Positions 39,275 through 49,030 of a stretch of 64,000 nucleotides of DNA are shown in pieces; the stretch's first letter is position 1, and each line of letters begins with the position of its first letter. The stretch spans positions 1 to 64,000 of the forward strand of contig NZ_VFSU01000032.1 of NCBI RefSeq assembly GCF_006385875.1, read 5' to 3'. The translations under genes and the position numbers were made by a program. The notes beneath the pieces were generated by a model. That model ran no database searches and was not told where the DNA came from. It saw nothing but the letters and a program-made list of their open reading frames with translations. The DNA comes from Sandaracinobacter neustonicus (GTDB lineage Bacteria > Pseudomonadota > Alphaproteobacteria > Sphingomonadales > Sphingomonadaceae).

Positions 39275-39302
39275 GAATCCGATAATCTATACTCCTGCAA
39301 GA
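39275..39302 (+). other. left attachment site (attL) of dif-integrated element
   Basis: XerC-type arm GAATCCGATAA and centre TCTATA, followed by CTCCTGCAAGA, which does not resemble a XerD arm. The 14 bases TCCGATAATCTATA are identical to those in the dif-like site at 42212-42225. Confidence 0.7.
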
Positions 39303-39314
39303 GGGTGGTGCCTC

Positions 39315-39351
39315 ATGTGCATCATGCCGCCGCAGGCGTCCTGATGCACAT
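39315..39351. repeat. inverted repeat near left end of element
   Basis: ATGTGCATCA and TGATGCACAT are perfect 10-bp arms separated by 17 bases. On single-stranded DNA this would be a stable hairpin. It may be a protein-binding site or a single-strand replication signal. Confidence 0.75.
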
Positions 39352-39387
39352 ATTAAACAGGCTGTAGTTGTGCTTCCGCCTTAGGAC

Positions 39388-39464
39388 TTATCCACAACTT
39401 TCGTAATTACTTCGAAAGGTCAGGGACTTAGCCTGTGGATAACCTGTGCATATCCTGTGGATAT
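39388..39464. other. DnaA-box cluster, putative replication origin of element
   Basis: TTATCCACA at 39388-39396, TGTGGATAA at 39434-39442 (both exact DnaA boxes in opposite orientation) and TGTGGATAT at 39456-39464 (one mismatch). A 6-bp hairpin (CTTTCG...CGAAAG, 39398-39418) with an AT-rich loop lies between them. This is the most AT-rich part of the element, as expected of a plasmid origin. Confidence 0.6.
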
Positions 39465-39537
39465 GTTGGGGAGAAGCTGGGGATATTGGCCCCTCCTCCC
39501 GTCGGGTCGAAAAAGCGAGGGGAGGGGCCTTGGTGGG

Positions 39538-39553
39538 TGGCACGATCTTTGCA
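39538..39553 (+). promoter_or_regulatory. sigma-54 promoter inside the element
   Basis: TGGCACG, ATCT, TTGCA: all 12 core positions of the RpoN consensus match, with GG and GC 10 bases apart. It points right, into the hairpin-rich GC region and antisense to the rep operon, not toward an obvious gene. Transcription would start near 39564, within the adjoining 7-bp repeats. Confidence 0.65.
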
Positions 39554-39580
39554 TAGGCACCTGCCTATTGTCGATAGGCA
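39553..39580. repeat. three alternating 7-bp half-sites
   Basis: ATAGGCA (39553-39559), TGCCTAT (39562-39568) and ATAGGCA (39574-39580) form two overlapping inverted repeats with 2-base and 5-base gaps. They cover the expected start site of the sigma-54 promoter, so they look like an operator or iteron-type binding site. Confidence 0.6.
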
Positions 39581-39699
39581 ACGGTCGTGGTAGCCGACTC
39601 GCAGCGCTGCTGTTTCGTGACAGGACCGCTGCGTCAGGCCCGCCGCATGTGCCGATGGTTGGGGTGCCCCAAGCGCCTCTATGCCAGCCTGTAAGCCGG

Positions 39700-40699
39700 T
39701 GGTCCTTTTCCCCTTTCAGTTGATGTGGTGCGGCCTGCGGCCGCGCGCTGTCTCAAGAGCGCCGCAGCCCTTCGGTCTGCGTCGAACGGCCCGCGCCCTT
39801 CGGTCGACGGGCCGGGGGCGGGGCGCGCTTCGCTGCGCCCCGGCGTTCGCGCCCTTCGGTCGCTCCGCTGGCGGGATGGCCTCGGGGTCTTTCCCCCCTC
39901 TCTCCGGCCACCACGGCTGCGCTTCGCTTGCCTCAAGCGTGCGTCCGGCTGTGCCCCCCTCTCGCGCCGTCTGGTGTGGTGCTGGCCCCGGACCTGCCCC
40001 GCCCGAGGCGCGCAGCGCAACCGCCGCGCCAACCCCCCGCCGCCATGCCCCGTCGCCTTCGGCTGGGGCGGCGGGGGGTTGTCACGGCGCTTGCTGGCCC
40101 GGCGTGGGAGCGCGCGTCTGGCCCCCCGGCCGTCCCGGCCGGTGGCGGCTGCCGCCGCCGTTCTGCTGCGCTGTCTGCGGTCGGCACCCCGTCACGCCCC
40201 TTGCAGCCGCCCCGCACCCGCCGCGCCAGCCGCCCCCTGTTCGCTGCGCTCCAGGGCGGCTGGCACGGCGGCTGCACGGCTGCAAGGGTCGCGCCGGGCT
40301 ACCGGCTGTCTTTTGCCGCCCGTGGCGGCGGGCTGACGCCCGCCCGGCGCGCACCGCTCCGCTTCGCTCCGCTGCGCCGGGCCCCCGGGGCCGCTCCGGG
40401 GGGCGCGCCCGGTCGCCCCCCGTGTTCGCTTCGCTCCCGGGGCCGCCCGGCCCCCCTGCGCGTCTCTCCGGGGGCCGCCACCCCCGGCACCCCACCGCGC
40501 CGCGCTGCGCGCGCGCCGCTGGGCCTTCGGCCTCCGGGCGGCTGCCGCCGCCGCCCGGGCGCGGCTCGCGCTCGCGCCACCCGTGTTCGGCGCGGCGGGG
40601 TGCGCGTGGCCCCGTCGCGCGCCCCCCGCACGCCGCGCGCGTGGCCCCGTCGAGCCCCCCCGAGGCTTCGCGGGGGTGGGGCTTCGCCCCCCCTCTCCG
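39700..40699. other. GC-extreme, hairpin-dense region without a convincing gene
   Basis: About 1 kb with very few A/T bases (for example only 8 of the 60 bases at 40381-40440). It is built from short inverted repeats, many closing on CTTCGG or GCTTCGC, such as GGGGCGC-N8-GCGCCCC near 39820 and CGGCCCG-N15-CGGGCCG just before it. Frames are open on both strands but their translations are Ala/Arg/Pro/Gly runs with no domain, and they contradict each other. It could be a structured RNA, a conjugation or packaging signal, or decaying sequence. Confidence 0.55.
40031..40080. repeat. long perfect GC hairpin
   Basis: AACCCCCCGCCGCC and GGCGGCGGGGGGTT are perfect 14-bp arms around a 22-base loop that itself contains GCCTTCGGC. 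This is the strongest single hairpin in the region. It may end transcription from either direction. Confidence 0.7.
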
Positions 40700-41227
40700 C
40701 TACGCTGTGGCCCCCTCTATCGTGGTGGGCGCGGGGAAGAGGGTGGGCGCGGCGGCCTCGTGCTGCTCGGTTCCCTCGGCGGTCTCACCACGCTCATCGC
40801 CATTGCGCTCTCCCTCACCCTTTGGTGCGCGGCCGCGCCGCCCCTGCTTGCCATGCGGCCGGGGTCCGCCTTTCGCAGGGTTCGCCCCCGGCTCGGCCGC
40901 GTCAAGCCCGCCTTCGGCCCCCTTCGGGGCTTCGGGGCTTGACACGGCCGCCCCGGCGGCTGGCGCGGAGGGCAGGGGAGGCGCGTTCGCACGCCGCGCC
41001 CTCCTCGCCTCGCTGCGCTGCCACTCGGCCATGATCAGGTGGTGAGCCGCCATGGTGGCCGCCTGATACTCGGCCGTGGCCTGCTGCACCGCCTCCTCCC
41101 GCTGCAACACTTCCAGCAGGTGGGAGAAGCCGGTGGGGCAGGGCAGCGCCCTCGCCTTGCGCAGCGCCGCCGTGGCCCGGTGCTCGCGCTGAAGCGCCCG
41201 GCGAAGCCTCATGCGCCGCTTTCTCAC
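40700..41227 (-). CDS. hypothetical element protein, basic N terminus and low-complexity tail
   Basis: Third gene of the leftward element operon, 175 aa. I use the GTG at 41227, which overlaps the stop of the preceding gene as GTGA; a TTG at 41239 and ATG at 41212 are alternatives. Residues about 1-80 are helical and strongly basic (KRRMRLRRALQREHRAT, LLEVLQREEAVQQATAEYQ), consistent with nucleic-acid binding or coiled coil. The second half is Ala/Gly/Glu-rich and disordered-looking, and its DNA carries nested TTCG hairpins (40904-40943). I recognise no family. Confidence 0.5.
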   Translation of the reverse strand: MRKRRMRLRRALQREHRATAALRKARALPCPTGFSHLLEVLQREEAVQQATAEYQAATMAAHHLIMAEWQRSEARRARRANAPPLPSAPAAGAAVSSPEAPKGAEGGLDAAEPGANPAKGGPRPHGKQGRRGRAPKGEGERNGDERGETAEGTEQHEAAAPTLFPAPTTIEGATA

Positions 41228-41610
41228 GGCTGCCACCAACGCGCGCGCTTCGCGCTGGGGGTCGCGCGCGCATTATGCACGCGCACACGCGTGCGAGGCT
41301 CCAGCCGGTCCAGCCGCTTGCACTCCTGTTCCCATGAGCGCGCCAAAGCGCGCCATGCGTTGCGCGATCTCTCCAGTTTCCGATACGCATCGGCCGCAAT
41401 TTGCAGTTCTGCGCGCAGAGTGGCCGCCTCGTCGGCGCAGTCCTGATACCCGGCCGCCCACTCTGCGGCGGCCTGTTCGGCCAAATCGCAGTGGTCGCAG
41501 CGCCCGTCAGGGGCAGGGGAGGGGGGAAGCGGCAGTGGTGCTGACCTATCGTTGGTCCACCCCTGAAACGGCCTGATCCACCGCGCGAAAGCATCTGTGG
41601 TTCTGCTCAT
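41224..41610 (-). CDS. hypothetical element protein with CxxC motif and coiled coil
   Basis: Second gene of the element operon, 128 aa. The ATG shares an ATGA overlap with the RepL-like gene. A Pro-rich segment precedes a CDHCDLAEQ motif (about residues 38-46). A long helical stretch (about 55-105, AATLRAELQIAADAYRKLER) with heptad character follows, ending in a basic tail. One CxxC pair plus a later Cys could bind metal. Not recognised; probably helps replication or maintenance, judged by coupling alone. Confidence 0.55.
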   Translation of the reverse strand: MSRTTDAFARWIRPFQGWTNDRSAPLPLPPSPAPDGRCDHCDLAEQAAAEWAAGYQDCADEAATLRAELQIAADAYRKLERSRNAWRALARSWEQECKRLDRLEPRTRVRVHNARATPSAKRARWWQP

Positions 41611-42170
41611 TTTGCCCCCCAATGCCAAGGCTTAAGCACGTCAGTTGACACGCCATCGCGGCGGTTCGCCGCGTGCCAGTCGGCCGCTTTGGCGATCTCC
41701 GGCCCGCGCAACTTGCGCTCGTCCCGATACGCGCGCGCTGTGCCGCGCCAACAAAGCCAGATGCTCAACCGCGCTTCGCGCGCGTTGCGCTGGATGATGC
41801 CCCGGCGCTCCAGTTCGACAAGCGCCCGGCTGATCGCCGTGCGGTCGATCTCAAGCAACTCGCCCACGGCCTGCGCGCTAACGAACCGATACTGCCGCGC
41901 GTCCAAGTGGCCGATGGCCCATTGCAGCACGCGAGCGGTCGGGGCCGACATGCGGCAGCGGGAAACCGCCTCGGCCGCGTCGTCGAACACGATCAGCCAT
42001 GTTCGGCCGTAGTGCTGGCTCGCGCGCCGCAGGTGGTTGATGCGCCACACGTCGCGCCGCTCGCCATCCTGCAAGGTGATTGTCCGCTGATCCATGGCAA
42101 CCCGCAGGCTGCGTGCCTCTGGTTCGGAAAGGCCCTCGGGGGTGAGGGCGGTTTTCGGTCGTCTAGCCAC
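41607..42170 (-). CDS. RepL-like winged-helix replication protein
   Basis: First gene of the element operon, 187 aa. The central region has an R-T-W-L-I-V-F-D-D strand and a winged helix: VSAQAVGELLEIDRTAISRA followed by LVELERRGII, then SIWLCWRGTARAYRDE, matching the layout of RepL-type plasmid initiators (helix-turn-helix, wing, then aromatic-Arg-Gly). I start at GTG 42170, preceded by AAAGGAG six bases away; an ATG at 42209 would begin in the attachment site. It could instead be a GntR/MarR-like regulator, but DnaA boxes in the same element favour a replication role. Confidence 0.6.
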   Translation of the reverse strand: MARRPKTALTPEGLSEPEARSLRVAMDQRTITLQDGERRDVWRINHLRRASQHYGRTWLIVFDDAAEAVSRCRMSAPTARVLQWAIGHLDARQYRFVSAQAVGELLEIDRTAISRALVELERRGIIQRNAREARLSIWLCWRGTARAYRDERKLRGPEIAKAADWHAANRRDGVSTDVLKPWHWGAK

Positions 42171-42208
42171 TGTGCGCTCCTTTCGCTGTTTCGTGACAAG
42201 GGCGCACA

Positions 42209-42236
42209 TAGTCCGATAATCTATATTATGTTAATT
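42209..42236 (+). other. dif-like XerC/XerD site (attR), probable chromosomal dif
   Basis: XerC arm TAGTCCGATAA, centre TCTATA, XerD arm TTATGTTAATT. The XerD arm matches E. coli dif (TTATGTTAAAT) at 10 of 11 bases and the centre at 5 of 6. Joining the left-flank XerC arm to this XerD arm would restore one uninterrupted 28-bp site. If it is the chromosomal dif, the window crosses the replication terminus. Confidence 0.65.
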
Positions 42237-42678
42237 CATTATTGGACTTTCGCCGCTCCGACCGCGCTCGCTTCGGTCGAAACTTGCCGAATCAACGAAT
42301 CTCCCGCTCGCTTTGGTGCTCCTGACGAGCATCTCGCGCATTGCCGCTCTGCAGGTCTGTGAAAATTGTGCGGCGCAACATGTTGATTCCTTAACGACTC
42401 TGTCATTTTTCCCGCGCTGCGCCAGTTGTGCCCTGTCGCCTTATGCGGCGATTTTCCATGCGGGATAACGCCGCATTCGCCGGAAAACCGGGCAAGTTCG
42501 CTGATAAATATTCTCCAAATTTCCAAAATTGGACGAAATATTCTGACATTGGCGCAAACTTTCGAAACAATCCCGCCCCATTCCAAGTCTAGACTGAAGC
42601 GTCCGCAGAAACCGCGTCGGATGCAGGGAAAAAAAGAACATCCTGCCGAACTCAACGAAAGGGTCAGGAGAATCTACG
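42237..42678 (+). other. intergenic region upstream of the TonB receptor
   Basis: No gene seen. It contains an inverted repeat ATGCGGCG-N18-CGCCGCAT (42443-42476). Two direct copies of AAATATTCT (42506-42514 and 42536-42544) lie 30 bp apart, a spacing of about three helical turns, in an AT-rich stretch that could be the promoter/operator. A GGAGAA ribosome-binding site precedes the receptor ATG. A small GACCG...CGGTC hairpin with a TTCG core near 42260 resembles those inside the element. Confidence 0.5.
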
Positions 42679-44990
42679 ATGCAAAGGGGGTTTCAACGTA
42701 ATCTGTGCCGGGTCCGCAGCCTTGCGCTGCTTGGTGGCACGGCGCTGATCTCAACTATCGCCTCCCCTGCCGCCTTGGCGCAGGTGGGCACGGCGGCTGC
42801 GCTGCCAGAGGATGAAATCATCGTGACGGCTCTGCGTCGCGACACCAACCTGCAAGACACGCCGATCGCGATCTCCGTGTCGACCGGTGCCGTGCTGGAA
42901 CGCAGCGGTTCCACCAGCTTCACCGATCTCACGCGCACCGCGCCTTCGCTGCGGATCGTCGATTCCGGCCCCGGCCAGCGCCGCGTGCTGATCCGGGGCA
43001 TCCAGTCGTCTGGCGAGCCCACGGTGGGCGTCTATTATGATGAAGTGCCGGTCTCCGGTTCGGTCTCGACTTCGTCTGATGCCGCCGGCACCACGCCCGA
43101 TTTCCGCCTGTTCGACGTGGAGCGCGCCGAAGTGCTGCGCGGCCCGCAAGGCACGCTGTTCGGCTCAGGCTCAATGGGCGGCACGCTGCGCATCATCTTC
43201 AAGAAGCCGGATTCCACCCAGTTCGCCGCGCAGGTGTCCAGCACCATGTCCAGTGTGAAGGGCGGCAATGTCGGCATGTCCATCGATTCGATGGTGAACG
43301 TGCCGATCGTGAGCGACAAGCTCGCCGTGCGCGTTGTCGGCAGCTTCAACCAGTTCGCCGCTATGTGGACAATAACCATTATGGCTATCGCAACATCAAC
43401 GACGGCCACAGCTATGGCGGCCGCGCGATGGTGCGCTGGACCCCGGTTGAGGATCTGACGATCGACCTCGCCGCCTTCTATGAAAAGGTGGAGACGGACA
43501 GCGCGCGCTGGATTCAGGAAGTCGGCATTCCCTATGTGACGAACGGCCGCTCGGAATCCGGCAACTATGACGAGAACAAGGTCTATTCCGGCACGCTGAA
43601 ATATGATTTCGGCCCCGTCGCAATGACGGCGATGACCGCCTGGTTTGATCGGAAGCGCACCGCCGTGTCGGACGTGTCCGACACCTTCAACGGCCGCGAC
43701 ACGGCTGCCGGTTGCCAGCGCTATCTTCTGGCCAACGCCCGCGCCTGCACGCCCACAGAATTGTCGGGTTATCTGACGTCGACGCGTGAAATCCTGACAT
43801 CCAGCCTGTGGCAGCCGCAGACGGTGAAGAACTGGGTTTCGGAACTGCGCTTCAACTCCACGAACGACAGCCCGTTCCAGTGGACGGTCGGCGCGTTCCA
43901 CGAAAAGCGCGACACGGTGGTGCGCTCTACCCTGCTGCTGGCCGATCCGAACACCGGCTGGCTGCTCAGCCCGGACGATCCCTACAACATCCGTTATGAC
44001 CGGACGATCAACGATTACCTTCGGCAGACGGCTGTGTTCGCGGAACTCAGCTATGAGCTGTTCGATCAGCTGACGCTGACGGCTGGCACGCGTTACTACA
44101 ACTTCAAGAAGACGGTGGGCGGCCGCATCGACGTGGGGCAGATCCACTACAGCTCGCGGCCAACCGCCTACACCGAAGCGACGAGCAAGGAAAACGGCTT
44201 CATCTATAAGTTCAATGCATCGTGGAAAGCGACTGACGGGCTGATGCTTTATGCTCAGGCCGCGCAGGGCTTCCGCCCCGGCGGCGTGAACCAGGTGATC
44301 GGCCTTCCGGCCGCTCTGGCCGGATACAGCTCGGACAGCCTGTGGAACTATGAACTCGGCGCCAAGACGACTCTGGCCCCCGGCGTTTACCTGAACCTCG
44401 CCGGTTACCGGATCGACTGGACGGACATGCAGGTCTCTGCCCGCACCTCCGGCACCGGTTCGGTGTTCGGGCTGATCTCCAACGTCGGTTCCGCGCGCAT
44501 CTATGGGGCAGAAGCCGAGCTTTCCGTGCGGATCACGCCGGAACTCAGCTTCAACGGCAATCTGGGCTTCACCGACGCCAAGCTGGCGGAAGATCAGGTC
44601 AGCGAGATCGTCGTCGCTTCGGGCCGCAAGGGCGACAGGCTTGTCGCAGTGCCGCGTTGGACCGCCGGTGCGTCGCTGGAATATATCAAGCCGGTCGGCG
44701 ACACGATGGACTTCCTGGGCCGGGTCGATTTTGCCCATGTGGGCAACAGCTACTCGACCCTGTCTGCGACCGACACCTATCGCCGGGAAAACCCTCCCTA
44801 CCAGATGGTGAACGGCCGCATCGGCCTGCAAGGGCAGGACAATGCGTGGTCCGCAGCCCTGTTCGTGAACAATGTGTTCGACGTGGTGGCGATCAACAGC
44901 ATCGGCTCCAGCTCCAACACGGGCGGCCTCACCACGGTGCAAAGCCTTTCGCCGCGCACCATCGGCCTGACGCTGGGCAAGCGCTTCTAG
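42679..44990 (+). pseudogene. TonB-dependent receptor, interrupted by one-base frameshift
   Basis: Outer-membrane receptor of about 770 aa if read through. A signal peptide (ALLGGTALISTIASPAALA) is followed by the plug domain (EIIVTALRRDTNLQDTPIAI; LIRGIQSSGEPTVGVYYDEV; VERAEVLRGPQGTLFGSGSM). The barrel continues in another frame from about 43360 (YVDNNHYGYRNIND) to the C-terminal RTIGLTLGKRF with a terminal Phe. One base appears lost near 43354-43362 (CAGTTCGCCGCTATGTG). The plug frame ends at 43458. The substrate is unknown; the adjacent amidohydrolases suggest a peptide-like compound. Confidence 0.85.
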
Positions 44991-45057
44991 CGCTTGCCCC
45001 CCTGCCCTCATTCCAGCTGACTTTTGTTGGCCAGAGGACTTTCATTGGGAGGTGAAG

Positions 45058-46752
45058 ATGATGCGTGTAACGAAACTTCTATGTGCCGCGTCAGTGTTGG
45101 CGTCTGTTGTGGTGGCCCCCGTTCTGGCGGCCACCAACGTCCCTGCCCCGCCGCGTCAGGCTGGTGAGGGCGCGGGGCCTTTCAACCGCATGGTGATCCG
45201 CGGGGCCATCCTGATCGACGGATCGGGCGCCCCGCCGCGCGGGCCGGTGGATATCGTTGTCGAGCGCAACAAGATCGTGGAAATCAAGCAGGCTGGCACC
45301 CCCGGCCTGCCGCTGAAGCCGGATCGCGAGCCGCGCAACTTCGATTATGAACTGGATGCGACCGGCATGTATGTGATGCCGGGCTTCATCGACATGCACG
45401 TCCATGCCTCGGGCGACGATAAAGCCCCCAACATGGGCTATGCCTATAAACTGTGGCTGGCCCATGGCGTGACGACGGTTCGCGGCGTCGGCTTGGCGCC
45501 GATGGACATCTCGCTGTCGGAACAGCGCCGTTCGGCCGCCAACGAGATCGTCGCGCCGCGCATCTTTACCTGCGCACGCCCCGGCGAAGGTGCGGGCTGG
45601 GGCAAGAAGCCGACCGACACGCCGGAAGCGATGCGCGCATGGGTGCGGTTCGGGGCGAAGGCCGGGATGGATTGCATCAAGTTCGGCATCGGCGTGGATC
45701 AGGGGCCGGAAGCCTATAAGGCCGCGCTCGATGAAGCGAAAAAGCTGGGCATCGGCACGGTGACGCACCACAGCCAGATCGGGGTGCCGCGCATGAACGC
45801 CCGGCAATCCGGCGAGGCGGGGCTTGGCACTGTCACCCACTATTACGGGCATTTTGAATCGCTGCTGAAGAATTACAAGATTCAGCCCGTCAGCCCGACT
45901 TACAACTTCAACGACGAGCAGTATCGCTTTGGTGAAGTCGCGGATATCTGGAACGAGATTTACGAGCCGGGTTCGACCGAATGGCTGGATTATCTGAAGT
46001 TCCAGAAGGAACATAATGTCACCTTCGATCCCACAATGACCATCTATCTGGCCAGCCGGGATCTGATGCGCGCCCGCAACGCGGATTGGCACGATACCTA
46101 TACGATGCCGCAGCTGTGGGAATTCTTCCAGTCCAGCCGGGTGAACCACGGCAGCTATTTCTTTGACTGGACGACGCGCACCGAAGTTCAATGGCGCAAT
46201 TTCTACCAGAAATTCTTCCGCCTGATCAACGATTACAAAAATATGGGCGGCCGGGTGACGGTTGGCACCGACAGCGGCTTCATCTTCAAAACCTATGGCT
46301 TCGGCTATCCCGAGGAACTGGAACTGCTGCAGGAAGCCGGGTTCAATCCGCACGAAGTCATTCAGGCGGCGACGCTGAACGGGGCGCTGACCCTTTATGA
46401 AACCAAGGGCATGGCTGATCCGCCGATCGGTCAGGTCCGGGTTGGTAAGCTCGCCGATCTGGTGATCGTAAAGGAAAACCCGCTGCAGAACTTCAAGACG
46501 CTCTATGGCACGGGCACGCTGCGCCTGAACGAGCAGACGCAGAAGCTGGAACGTGTGGGCGGGGTTTCCTACACCGTGAAGGACGGCATCGTTTACGACG
46601 CCAAGAAACTGCTGGCGGACGTGGCCGAACAGGTGAAAGCTAAAAGCGCAAGCGAGGCTGGCCTGAACAGGGCGTGCCGCGCGACTGAACAACCGCCGGC
46701 GCAGGCCGGCCGCCTGTTGGGTCGCTGCCGGCCATGCGCCGGTACCATGTGA
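45058..46752 (+). CDS. exported amidohydrolase family protein (copy 1)
   Basis: Metal-dependent hydrolase with signal peptide (about residues 1-25, VVVAPVLAA), 564 aa. TIM-barrel amidohydrolase features: PGFIDMHVHASGD (HxH metal pair), MDCIKFGIG (probable carboxylated Lys), VTHHSQIGVPR and VTHYYGHFES (His ligands) and VTVGTDSGFIFKTYG (Asp). ATG 45058 follows GGGAGG at 6-base spacing. The last 35 residues (after VKAKSASEAG) do not match copy 2 and run through a GC-rich hairpin region. It closely resembles copy 2 downstream, indicating tandem duplication. Probable role is cleavage of dipeptides or cyclic amides in the periplasm, inferred from context. Confidence 0.83.
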   Translation: MMRVTKLLCAASVLASVVVAPVLAATNVPAPPRQAGEGAGPFNRMVIRGAILIDGSGAPPRGPVDIVVERNKIVEIKQAGTPGLPLKPDREPRNFDYELDATGMYVMPGFIDMHVHASGDDKAPNMGYAYKLWLAHGVTTVRGVGLAPMDISLSEQRRSAANEIVAPRIFTCARPGEGAGWGKKPTDTPEAMRAWVRFGAKAGMDCIKFGIGVDQGPEAYKAALDEAKKLGIGTVTHHSQIGVPRMNARQSGEAGLGTVTHYYGHFESLLKNYKIQPVSPTYNFNDEQYRFGEVADIWNEIYEPGSTEWLDYLKFQKEHNVTFDPTMTIYLASRDLMRARNADWHDTYTMPQLWEFFQSSRVNHGSYFFDWTTRTEVQWRNFYQKFFRLINDYKNMGGRVTVGTDSGFIFKTYGFGYPEELELLQEAGFNPHEVIQAATLNGALTLYETKGMADPPIGQVRVGKLADLVIVKENPLQNFKTLYGTGTLRLNEQTQKLERVGGVSYTVKDGIVYDAKKLLADVAEQVKAKSASEAGLNRACRATEQPPAQAGRLLGRCRPCAGTM

Positions 46753-46800
46753 GGGCGGCCGGCCTGCTGCACCGGTGAACGATATAATGAAGGGGATCAT

Positions 46801-48444
46801 ATGCGGATGACGAAGTGGCGGCGTGGAGCCTTGCTGGCCGGTGCGCTGGTGGCGATGCAGATGGCAAATGGACCTGCCGCTGCGCAGATGTTCCCGAAAC
46901 TGCAGGGGGCACCGGCACGTACCTCCGAGGAAAGCGCCGGGCCTTACCGCAAGCTCGTCATCCGCAACGTGACCCTGATCGACGGCACCGGCGCGCCGCC
47001 GCGCAGCCGCTTCGACATCGTGATCGAGGGCAACCGCATCACCTCGGTGAAGCAATCGGGATGGCCCGGCCTGCCCTCCAAACCCAACCGCGAGCCGGGC
47101 GACGCTGAACGCGAGATCGACGGCACCGGCATGTTCGTGATGCCCGGCTTCACCGACATGCACGTCCACCTGCCCGGGCCGGACAAGGCCCCCGATGCTT
47201 CCTATGCCTATAAGCTGTGGCTGGCGCATGGCGTGACGACCGTGCGCGGCGTGCCGCTGGCCGCGAACGCAGACGCCGTTTCGGAAAAGGCCCGCTCGGC
47301 CCGCAACGAGATCGCCGCGCCCCGCATCTTCAACTACCAGACTCCCGGTTCGGGCTGGTCCGGCGGCACGGTGGACACGCCGGAAAAGGCGCGCGCCTGG
47401 GTGCAATGGGCCGCGAAGAACGGTGTGGATGGCATCAAATTCTTCAACGCCCCGAATGAAACGCCCGAGGTGTTCAAGGCACTGATCGATGAAGCGCACA
47501 AGAACGGCATGGGTACCACCGCCCACCTGTCGCAGATGGGGGTCGCCAACTTCAACGCGCGGCAAGCCGCCGCCGCCGGGCTGGACACCATCACCCACTT
47601 CTATGGGCATATGGAATCGCTGCTGAAGGATCGCACGATCCAGTCATTCCCGCCGAACTATGATTACAACAATGAACAGCATCGCTTCGGTGAGGTTGCT
47701 GAGATCTGGAATCAGGTTTACGAACCCGGCACGCCCGAGTGGAAGGATTATCTGGAAGCCCAGAAGGCAACCGGCGTGGTGTTCGACCCGACGTTCAACA
47801 TCTACGCCGCCTCCCGCGACCTGATGCGGGCGCGCACGGCGGAATGGCACAGCACCTATACCACCCCGCAGATGTGGAACTACTTCCAGTCCTCGCGGGA
47901 CAATCACGGCAGCTATTTCTTCGACTGGTCGACGGAAAATGAGTTCGCATGGAAGCGCTTCTATGGCCGCTTCTTCCAGGTCGTGAATGATTACAAGAAC
48001 ATCGGCGGCCATGTGACGGTGGGCACCGACAGCGGCTTCATCTTCAAAACCTACGGTTTCGCCTATGTGGAAGAACTGGAACTGCTGCGCGAAGCCGGGT
48101 TCTCGCCGTTGGAAATCATCCGCTCGGCTACGATGTGGGGCGCGGACAATCTCTACAAGCATCGGGGTGGCAATGCGCCGATGGGCGTGGTGCGGCCGGG
48201 GATGCTGGCGGATCTGGTGATCACCACGGAAAACCCGCTGCAGAATCTGAAGACGCTCTATGGCACCAAGGCGCTCCGCCTCGACGACAAGACGGGCAAG
48301 CTGGAGCGTGTGGGCGGCGTTCGCTACACCATCAAGGATGGCATCATCTATGATGCGCCGATCCTGCTGAAGCAGGTGGAAGCCATGGTGAAGGCGGAGC
48401 GGGCCCGGCTCGGCGCGCCCATTCCGAACGCACCGCAGCCCTGA
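46801..48444 (+). CDS. exported amidohydrolase family protein (copy 2)
   Basis: Paralogue of the preceding gene, 547 aa, with signal peptide ending near AAAQ. The same metal-site pattern is present: TDMHVHLPGPD, DGIKFFNAP, TTAHLSQMGVANFNARQ, DTITHFYGHMES and VTVGTDSGFIFKTYG. Long shared blocks such as YAYKLWLAHGVTTVRGV and LMRAR(N/T)A(D/E)WH show clear common descent. A sequence difference at the second His motif (THHSQ versus AHLSQ) might alter metal binding or specificity. It is probably in one operon with copy 1 and the TonB receptor. Confidence 0.83.
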   Translation: MRMTKWRRGALLAGALVAMQMANGPAAAQMFPKLQGAPARTSEESAGPYRKLVIRNVTLIDGTGAPPRSRFDIVIEGNRITSVKQSGWPGLPSKPNREPGDAEREIDGTGMFVMPGFTDMHVHLPGPDKAPDASYAYKLWLAHGVTTVRGVPLAANADAVSEKARSARNEIAAPRIFNYQTPGSGWSGGTVDTPEKARAWVQWAAKNGVDGIKFFNAPNETPEVFKALIDEAHKNGMGTTAHLSQMGVANFNARQAAAAGLDTITHFYGHMESLLKDRTIQSFPPNYDYNNEQHRFGEVAEIWNQVYEPGTPEWKDYLEAQKATGVVFDPTFNIYAASRDLMRARTAEWHSTYTTPQMWNYFQSSRDNHGSYFFDWSTENEFAWKRFYGRFFQVVNDYKNIGGHVTVGTDSGFIFKTYGFAYVEELELLREAGFSPLEIIRSATMWGADNLYKHRGGNAPMGVVRPGMLADLVITTENPLQNLKTLYGTKALRLDDKTGKLERVGGVRYTIKDGIIYDAPILLKQVEAMVKAERARLGAPIPNAPQP

Positions 48445-48462
48445 TGCCGATGCGGGGGATGC

Positions 48463-48489
48463 GATCTGGCCGGAAGCCCCGGCCAGATC
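48463..48489. terminator. bidirectional hairpin between amidohydrolase 2 and Lrp gene
   Basis: GATCTGGCCGG-AAGCC-CCGGCCAGATC: perfect 11-bp stem, 5-base loop, in the 53-bp gap between converging genes. No T-run, but stability and position suit a terminator for both. Confidence 0.6.
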
Positions 48490-48497
48490 GGGCTGGC

Positions 48498-48953
48498 TCA
48501 GATCGGGATGGCCGTGCTGGCCTTCACTTCCTCCAGCACCGCATAGGTGCGGGTTTCACGCACGCCCGGCATGGTGGTGAGCGAATCCCCGAGGAAGCGG
48601 CGATAGGCGGCCATGTCGGCCACCCGCACCTTCAGCAGATAGTCGAACCCGCCGGCCACCATATGGCATTCGATGATCTCGGGCATGCCCTTCATGGCGT
48701 CAGCGAACTGCTCGAACACATTGTTGGTGGTGCGATCCAGATGCACTTCGATGAATACCAGCAGCGCGCGGTTCAGGAGCGTCGGGTCCAGCAGGGCGAC
48801 GATTCCCTTCACATAGCCCTGCTCTCTCAGCTTGCGCAGCCGATCGAAGCAGGCGGAAGGGGAAATGCCGGAATTGGCGGCCAGTTCCTGATAAGTGATG
48901 CGCCCGTCTGCTTGCAGCGTGCGAAGAATATTCCGGTCAATCGTATCAAGCAT
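48498..48953 (-). CDS. Lrp/AsnC family regulator, probable PutR
   Basis: Leucine-responsive-type regulator of 151 aa. N-terminal helix-turn-helix (LDTIDRNILRTLQADGRITY, ELAANSGISPSACFDRLRKL, residues 2-45) and C-terminal RAM domain (about 65-145, MPEIIECHMVAGGFDYLLKV, VRETRTYAVLEEVK). It is divergent from an amino-acid permease followed by putA. In several Alphaproteobacteria an Lrp-type PutR in this arrangement activates putA in response to proline; the same role is inferred here. Confidence 0.85.
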   Translation of the reverse strand: MLDTIDRNILRTLQADGRITYQELAANSGISPSACFDRLRKLREQGYVKGIVALLDPTLLNRALLVFIEVHLDRTTNNVFEQFADAMKGMPEIIECHMVAGGFDYLLKVRVADMAAYRRFLGDSLTTMPGVRETRTYAVLEEVKASTAIPI

Positions 48954-49030
48954 CGAAGATCCTCCGGGTCAGGACTGTATAGGCGGACGGATATCGGGGG
49001 AAGCCCTATTGTGACGAAGGGGAGAGCGGA

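Follow-up and report, generated by a model that had tools for sequence, protein, structure and literature searches.

A 2.93-kb interval at the dif site of Sandaracinobacter neustonicus as a probable plasmid-type IMEX with an attachment site of the TLC-phage and GGI type

Filamentous phages, satellites of such phages, and large islands make up most of the described integrative mobile elements exploiting Xer (IMEX), which insert at dif, the site at which the two copies of the host chromosome are separated. The attP of the TLC phage, a filamentous-phage satellite, combines a good XerC arm and centre with a degenerate XerD side and depends on the host Xer recombinases (PMC4246890). The attP of the gonococcal genomic island (GGI), which is 57 kb long and has a type IV secretion system, has the same layout and likewise depends on the host enzymes, and FtsK is reported to strip XerCD off its degenerate site, which blocks excision (PMC5357621). 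IMEX of the RS1/CTX type are small, reside at dif, and lack an integrase; in the CTX type, two inverted sites on a single strand fold to form attP. EludIMEX-1 of Enterobacter ludwigii spans 29 kb and carries a carbapenemase gene. The Legionella element LME-1 integrates by means of a 22-bp partial dif mimic, and one altered flank limits its excision (PMC9765430).

The window analyzed here is a 64-kb stretch of S. neustonicus (contig NZ_VFSU01000032.1, positions 1 to 64,000). Within it lies an interval with a GC content of 71.5% and a single occurrence in the genome (Table 1), which is probably a plasmid-type IMEX that combines an att site of the TLC-phage and GGI type with a plasmid-type replication module. 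The interval has the features of an IMEX: integration at dif, a partly duplicated dif, an intact dif at one end, an empty site in relatives, and no integrase. The attP predicted for its circular form would share with those of the TLC phage and the GGI the layout of XerC arm, centre, and degenerate XerD side. In contrast to the TLC phage, the element contains DnaA boxes and a winged-helix protein and no phage genes, and it is far smaller than the GGI. It resembles the RS1/CTX-type IMEX in its small size, its position at dif, and its lack of an integrase but has one dif-like site rather than two inverted ones and no rolling-circle replication gene; unlike EludIMEX-1, it carries no recognized cargo genes. 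With LME-1 it shares the use of a partial dif mimic for integration, whereas LME-1 has a much longer match to dif and belongs to the single-recombinase XerL system. RepL-like mini-plasmids of 1.5 to 4 kb (Col(MG828) type, pDESACI.02, and Bartonella pKM19s) encode a winged-helix protein that resembles the product of gene 1 over ~100 residues at ~20% identity; these are plasmid records, mostly with mobilization genes, while the present element is integrated. The open-licence literature yielded no description of an element of this kind in Sphingomonadaceae.

Table 1. Coordinates of features at the dif locus, as positions in the 64-kb window
Feature	Coordinates	Strand	Details
attL	39275..39291	+	Host-type XerC arm 39275-39285, centre TCTATA 39286-39291, no XerD arm
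Integrated element	39292..42225		2,934 bp; absent at the dif of relatives G001 and G002
Inverted repeat adjoining attL	39315..39351		Outer 10-bp arms perfect; possible accessory binding site
DnaA box TTATCCACA	39388..39396	+	Exact
DnaA box TTATCCACA	39434..39442	-	Exact
DnaA box ATATCCACA	39456..39464	-	One mismatch
Five KOPS GGGNAGGG	39519..41523	+	At 39519, 40970, 41136, 41511, and 41516 (last two overlap)
13-bp direct repeat TGTCACGAAACAG, copy 1	39610..39622	-	Origin side
GC-rich stretch	39724..40699		Many inverted repeats, no convincing gene; 81% GC at 40-41 kb
Gene 3, orphan	40700..41227	-	GTG start overlaps gene 2 stop (GTGA); helical N terminus, low-complexity tail
Gene 2, orphan	41224..41610	-	ATG start overlaps gene 1 stop (ATGA)
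Gene 1 (P0001)	41607..42170	-	Winged-helix protein, probable replication initiator; likeliest start GTG 42170 behind AAAGGAG, longer ORF begins at 42209
13-bp direct repeat TGTCACGAAACAG, copy 2	42186..42198	-	Gene 1 leader
attR (intact dif, 28 bp)	42209..42236	+	Element-type XerC arm 42209-42219, centre 42220-42225, host XerD arm 42226-42236

The preliminary description of this DNA had pointed to an exact 14-bp direct repeat followed by a XerD arm at its right copy and not at its left, and had read this asymmetry as the mark of XerCD-mediated insertion. Both copies of the repeat, TCCGATAATCTATA, are indeed exact (39278-39291 and 42212-42225); elsewhere in the window, the sequence has one further match at up to 3 mismatches, with 3 mismatches. 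Given the base composition, chance would yield ~3e-6 exact copies per 10 kb, and 300 simulated sequences of 10 kb contained none. The right copy belongs to a full dif, TAGTCCGATAA-TCTATA-TTATGTTAATT, and the left site reads GAATCCGATAA-TCTATA followed by CTCCTGCAAGA, which shares 3 of 11 positions with a XerD arm, a score that many random stretches reach equally well. The predicted circle junction reads TAGTCCGATAATCTATACTCCTGCAAGAGG, and the site of the predicted circle, TAGTCCGATAA-TCTATA-CTCCTGCAAGA (XerD side again 3/11), is an attP of the TLC type, its XerC arm and centre matching dif and its XerD side divergent. The third base of the XerC arm is A in attL, as in the dif sites of relatives G001 to G004, and G in attR; this polarity of host-type and element-type arms is the one predicted for the insertion of a circle that carries a XerC arm and centre.

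Of 60 relatives, 33 had a match to the dif pattern, in most cases a single one per genome, and in G001 to G005 a single dif lies beside the left-flank genes, so that a dif is present at this locus in related genomes. G001 and G002, which belong to the same genus, each have one intact dif (the sequence of that in G001 is further diverged), with neither the element nor a duplicated half-site; their gene order of SnoaL-like gene, single dif, and permease joins the same flanking genes directly. In G002, homology to the left flank runs exactly as far as the final base of the centre (39291) and resumes at the permease, at 49030. A duplicated XerC half-site was found in none of 24 other dif neighbourhoods. 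The empty dif in these two relatives, the homology stop, and the base polarity of the XerC arms bear out the proposed insertion signature, and integration of the element at dif is well supported, with XerCD as its presumed catalysts. The genome encodes two Xer-like recombinase ORFs of 296 and 323 amino acids, which are its top-scoring matches to the XerD model, both below the curated cut-off of that model.

To the right of dif, G001 and G002 also lack the ~6.8-kb segment (42237-48970) that lies ahead of the permease. It encodes a TonB-dependent receptor, two amidohydrolases, and an apparent Lrp-type regulator; the receptor (42679-44990) is split between the ORFs 42679-43458 and 43365-44990, which overlap and differ in frame, and is therefore frameshifted or misassembled there. 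A second Xer insert was considered for this segment and rejected, as inspection by eye found no dif half-site at its far end; lying beyond the XerD arm, the segment falls outside the Xer insertion model. Separately, in the genome of relative G032, a second dif-like site was found at ~98.1 kb of the 131-kb contig C3 (L049:9990-10017), a different contig from that of L048 in this genome, which may be a secondary replicon that has a dif of its own.

The element carries three minus-strand genes in succession, and the coupling noted in the preliminary description is seen as 4-bp overlaps, ATGA between genes 1 and 2 and GTGA between genes 2 and 3. Gene 1, which had been described as RepL-like, gave weak matches to winged-helix families in Pfam, PHROGs, and NCBIfam. 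A profile of RepL-type proteins from plasmids of 1.5 to 4 kb aligns to it over 101 columns with a probability of 95%, and a relaxed plasmid search retrieved the RepL of a 3.9-kb plasmid (E, 4e-3) where an earlier search at a 0.01 cut-off had been empty. However, Pfam RepL (PF05732) was not listed at E values up to 1, in a search whose HMMER filters may drop weak matches, and the same RepL-type profile scores the winged helices of CodY structures in the PDB at 28.9 bits and gene 1 at 25.4 bits; because CodY, an unrelated winged-helix family, scores as high, the RepL assignment is weakened. Gene 1 likely acts as a replication initiator and may be distantly related to plasmid initiators of the RepL type. 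Structure prediction without an alignment gave a pLDDT of 37. No close homologue of gene 1 was found in 299 genomes of the family, 385 of the class, and 398 of the order, or in GTDB contigs, IMG/VR, plasmids, and phages; the weak matches inspected were rejected as generic winged helices, such as a MarR-GNAT fusion (L031) and a Crp-like regulator (L115). Gene 2 had no credible family match in Pfam, PHROGs, or NCBIfam, gene 3 had none in Pfam, PHROGs, or PADLOC, and collections of plasmids, phages, viruses, and genomes held no convincing homologue of either, so that the search of plasmid and phage databases returned no close homologue of any of the three proteins. Scans of the three proteins detected no integrase (Pfam, PHROGs, and NCBIfam) and no rolling-circle Rep, coat, or morphogenesis gene (Pfam and PHROGs), in agreement with the earlier remark that a phage coat gene is missing. 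A scan for hydrophobic segments found a single one, in a plus-strand frame within the GC-rich stretch, and an Rfam search gave no credible match.

The DnaA boxes reported earlier are confirmed as two exact boxes and one with a single mismatch inside 77 bp, where 0.04 are expected; none of 2,000 simulations produced such a cluster. Even with up to 2 mismatches allowed, the window contains just two copies of the 13-bp repeat TGTCACGAAACAG, and these flank the predicted circle junction, with the DnaA boxes across the junction from gene 1. In the predicted circle, the gene 1 start, the att site, the DnaA boxes, and both repeats would fall within ~390 bp, as would be the case if the unit had been opened within the region that controls it. 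A single pair is fewer repeats than in typical iteron origins. A copy of the host oriC was rejected as the source of the DnaA array, since the hemE-side region of the same genome is without such an array, and among four genomes of the genus an exact match to the 15-bp core of the array is confined to the element. The hemE-adjacent region of another family member (L111:1400-1690) is rich in DnaA boxes and is probably an oriC. The array is 89% identical over 45 bp to this region; it is thus oriC-like and might conceivably descend from an oriC.

These observations suggest the following course of events. A circle carrying an attP of XerC arm, TCTATA, and degenerate XerD side would be recombined with the chromosomal dif by host XerC and XerD. 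The left end would retain the host XerC arm and centre, and the right end would gain an intact hybrid dif, which would keep chromosome dimer resolution possible. The element seems to borrow the host recombinases and to have no recombination enzyme of its own. In the circle, attP would sit between the gene 1 leader and the DnaA-box cluster, and integration would therefore split, and excision rejoin, a single regulatory or origin region. The winged-helix protein of gene 1 probably starts the putative autonomous replication together with host DnaA, and genes 2 and 3 may be translationally coupled helpers. Alternatively, the interval could be a filamentous-phage satellite of the RS1 or TLC kind, in which gene 1 encodes a repressor and a helper phage replicates and packages the DNA. 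Small elements described at dif are mostly filamentous phages or their satellites (PMC4246890), the attP is of the TLC type, and the generic winged helix of gene 1 could be that of a repressor. We nevertheless consider a satellite unlikely: a rolling-circle replication gene and any phage family match of note are missing, no match was found in 50,697 phage records or IMG/VR, and the DnaA-box cluster points to DnaA-assisted double-strand replication.

The surrounding chromosome has the polarity of a replication terminus. KOPS (GGGNAGGG), the motifs that orient FtsK, occur at a plus:minus ratio of 19:2 to the left of this dif and 0:10 to its right, the strand switch at dif is also present in five same-genus relatives, and cumulative GC skew peaks locally at 39 to 40 kb; the KOPS switch and the skew maximum together indicate a working dif region. 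The element itself has 5 plus-strand and 0 minus-strand KOPS versus 0.24 and 0.95 expected from simulated sequences, all directed at the rebuilt dif in the same direction as the host KOPS. This alignment would let FtsK travel from the left through attL and the element and halt at dif, and it may also help to keep the element integrated; by analogy, the blocking of excision by FtsK described for the GGI could apply to the 2.93-kb element too. The agreement of its KOPS with the chromosome would equally suit a fixed, immobile remnant of a Xer insertion, decayed or domesticated and kept passively or for its KOPS. Such a remnant would also account for a 1-kb gene-free stretch and for an element that has no relatives found, occurs once, in the chromosome, and is represented by neither a free circle nor a second copy in the assembly; with no further natural copy found, the case for mobility depends on a single insertion. 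A remnant is less probable still than a phage satellite, however, given three open genes with intact 4-bp overlaps, an intact repeat pair and DnaA boxes, and two 14-bp copies that are still identical. An origin outside Xer recombination, with the half-site arising by chance or duplication within an ordinary difference in gene content at a terminus that is variable here (the adjacent 6.8 kb differs between relatives too), is very improbable and largely refuted by the chance expectation for the 14-mer, the G002 homology that stops exactly where the centre ends, and the arm polarity.

The interpretation as a plasmid-type IMEX can be extended, more tentatively, to a dif-specialized lineage of mini-plasmids of the theta type, with no relation to filamentous phages, whose att site lies inside the origin or promoter region and whose host-direction KOPS provide compatibility with FtsK; we regard this as possible but somewhat doubtful. 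If the element is indeed a plasmid-type unit of 2.9 kb, dif capture would need little beyond a 17-bp site on a replicon. It would then offer a very small natural model of an integrated state maintained by FtsK traffic and a degenerate XerD side. The KOPS pattern suggests that dif-resident elements adapt to the terminus, and the jump in KOPS polarity at dif makes the motif usable for locating the terminus in this family.
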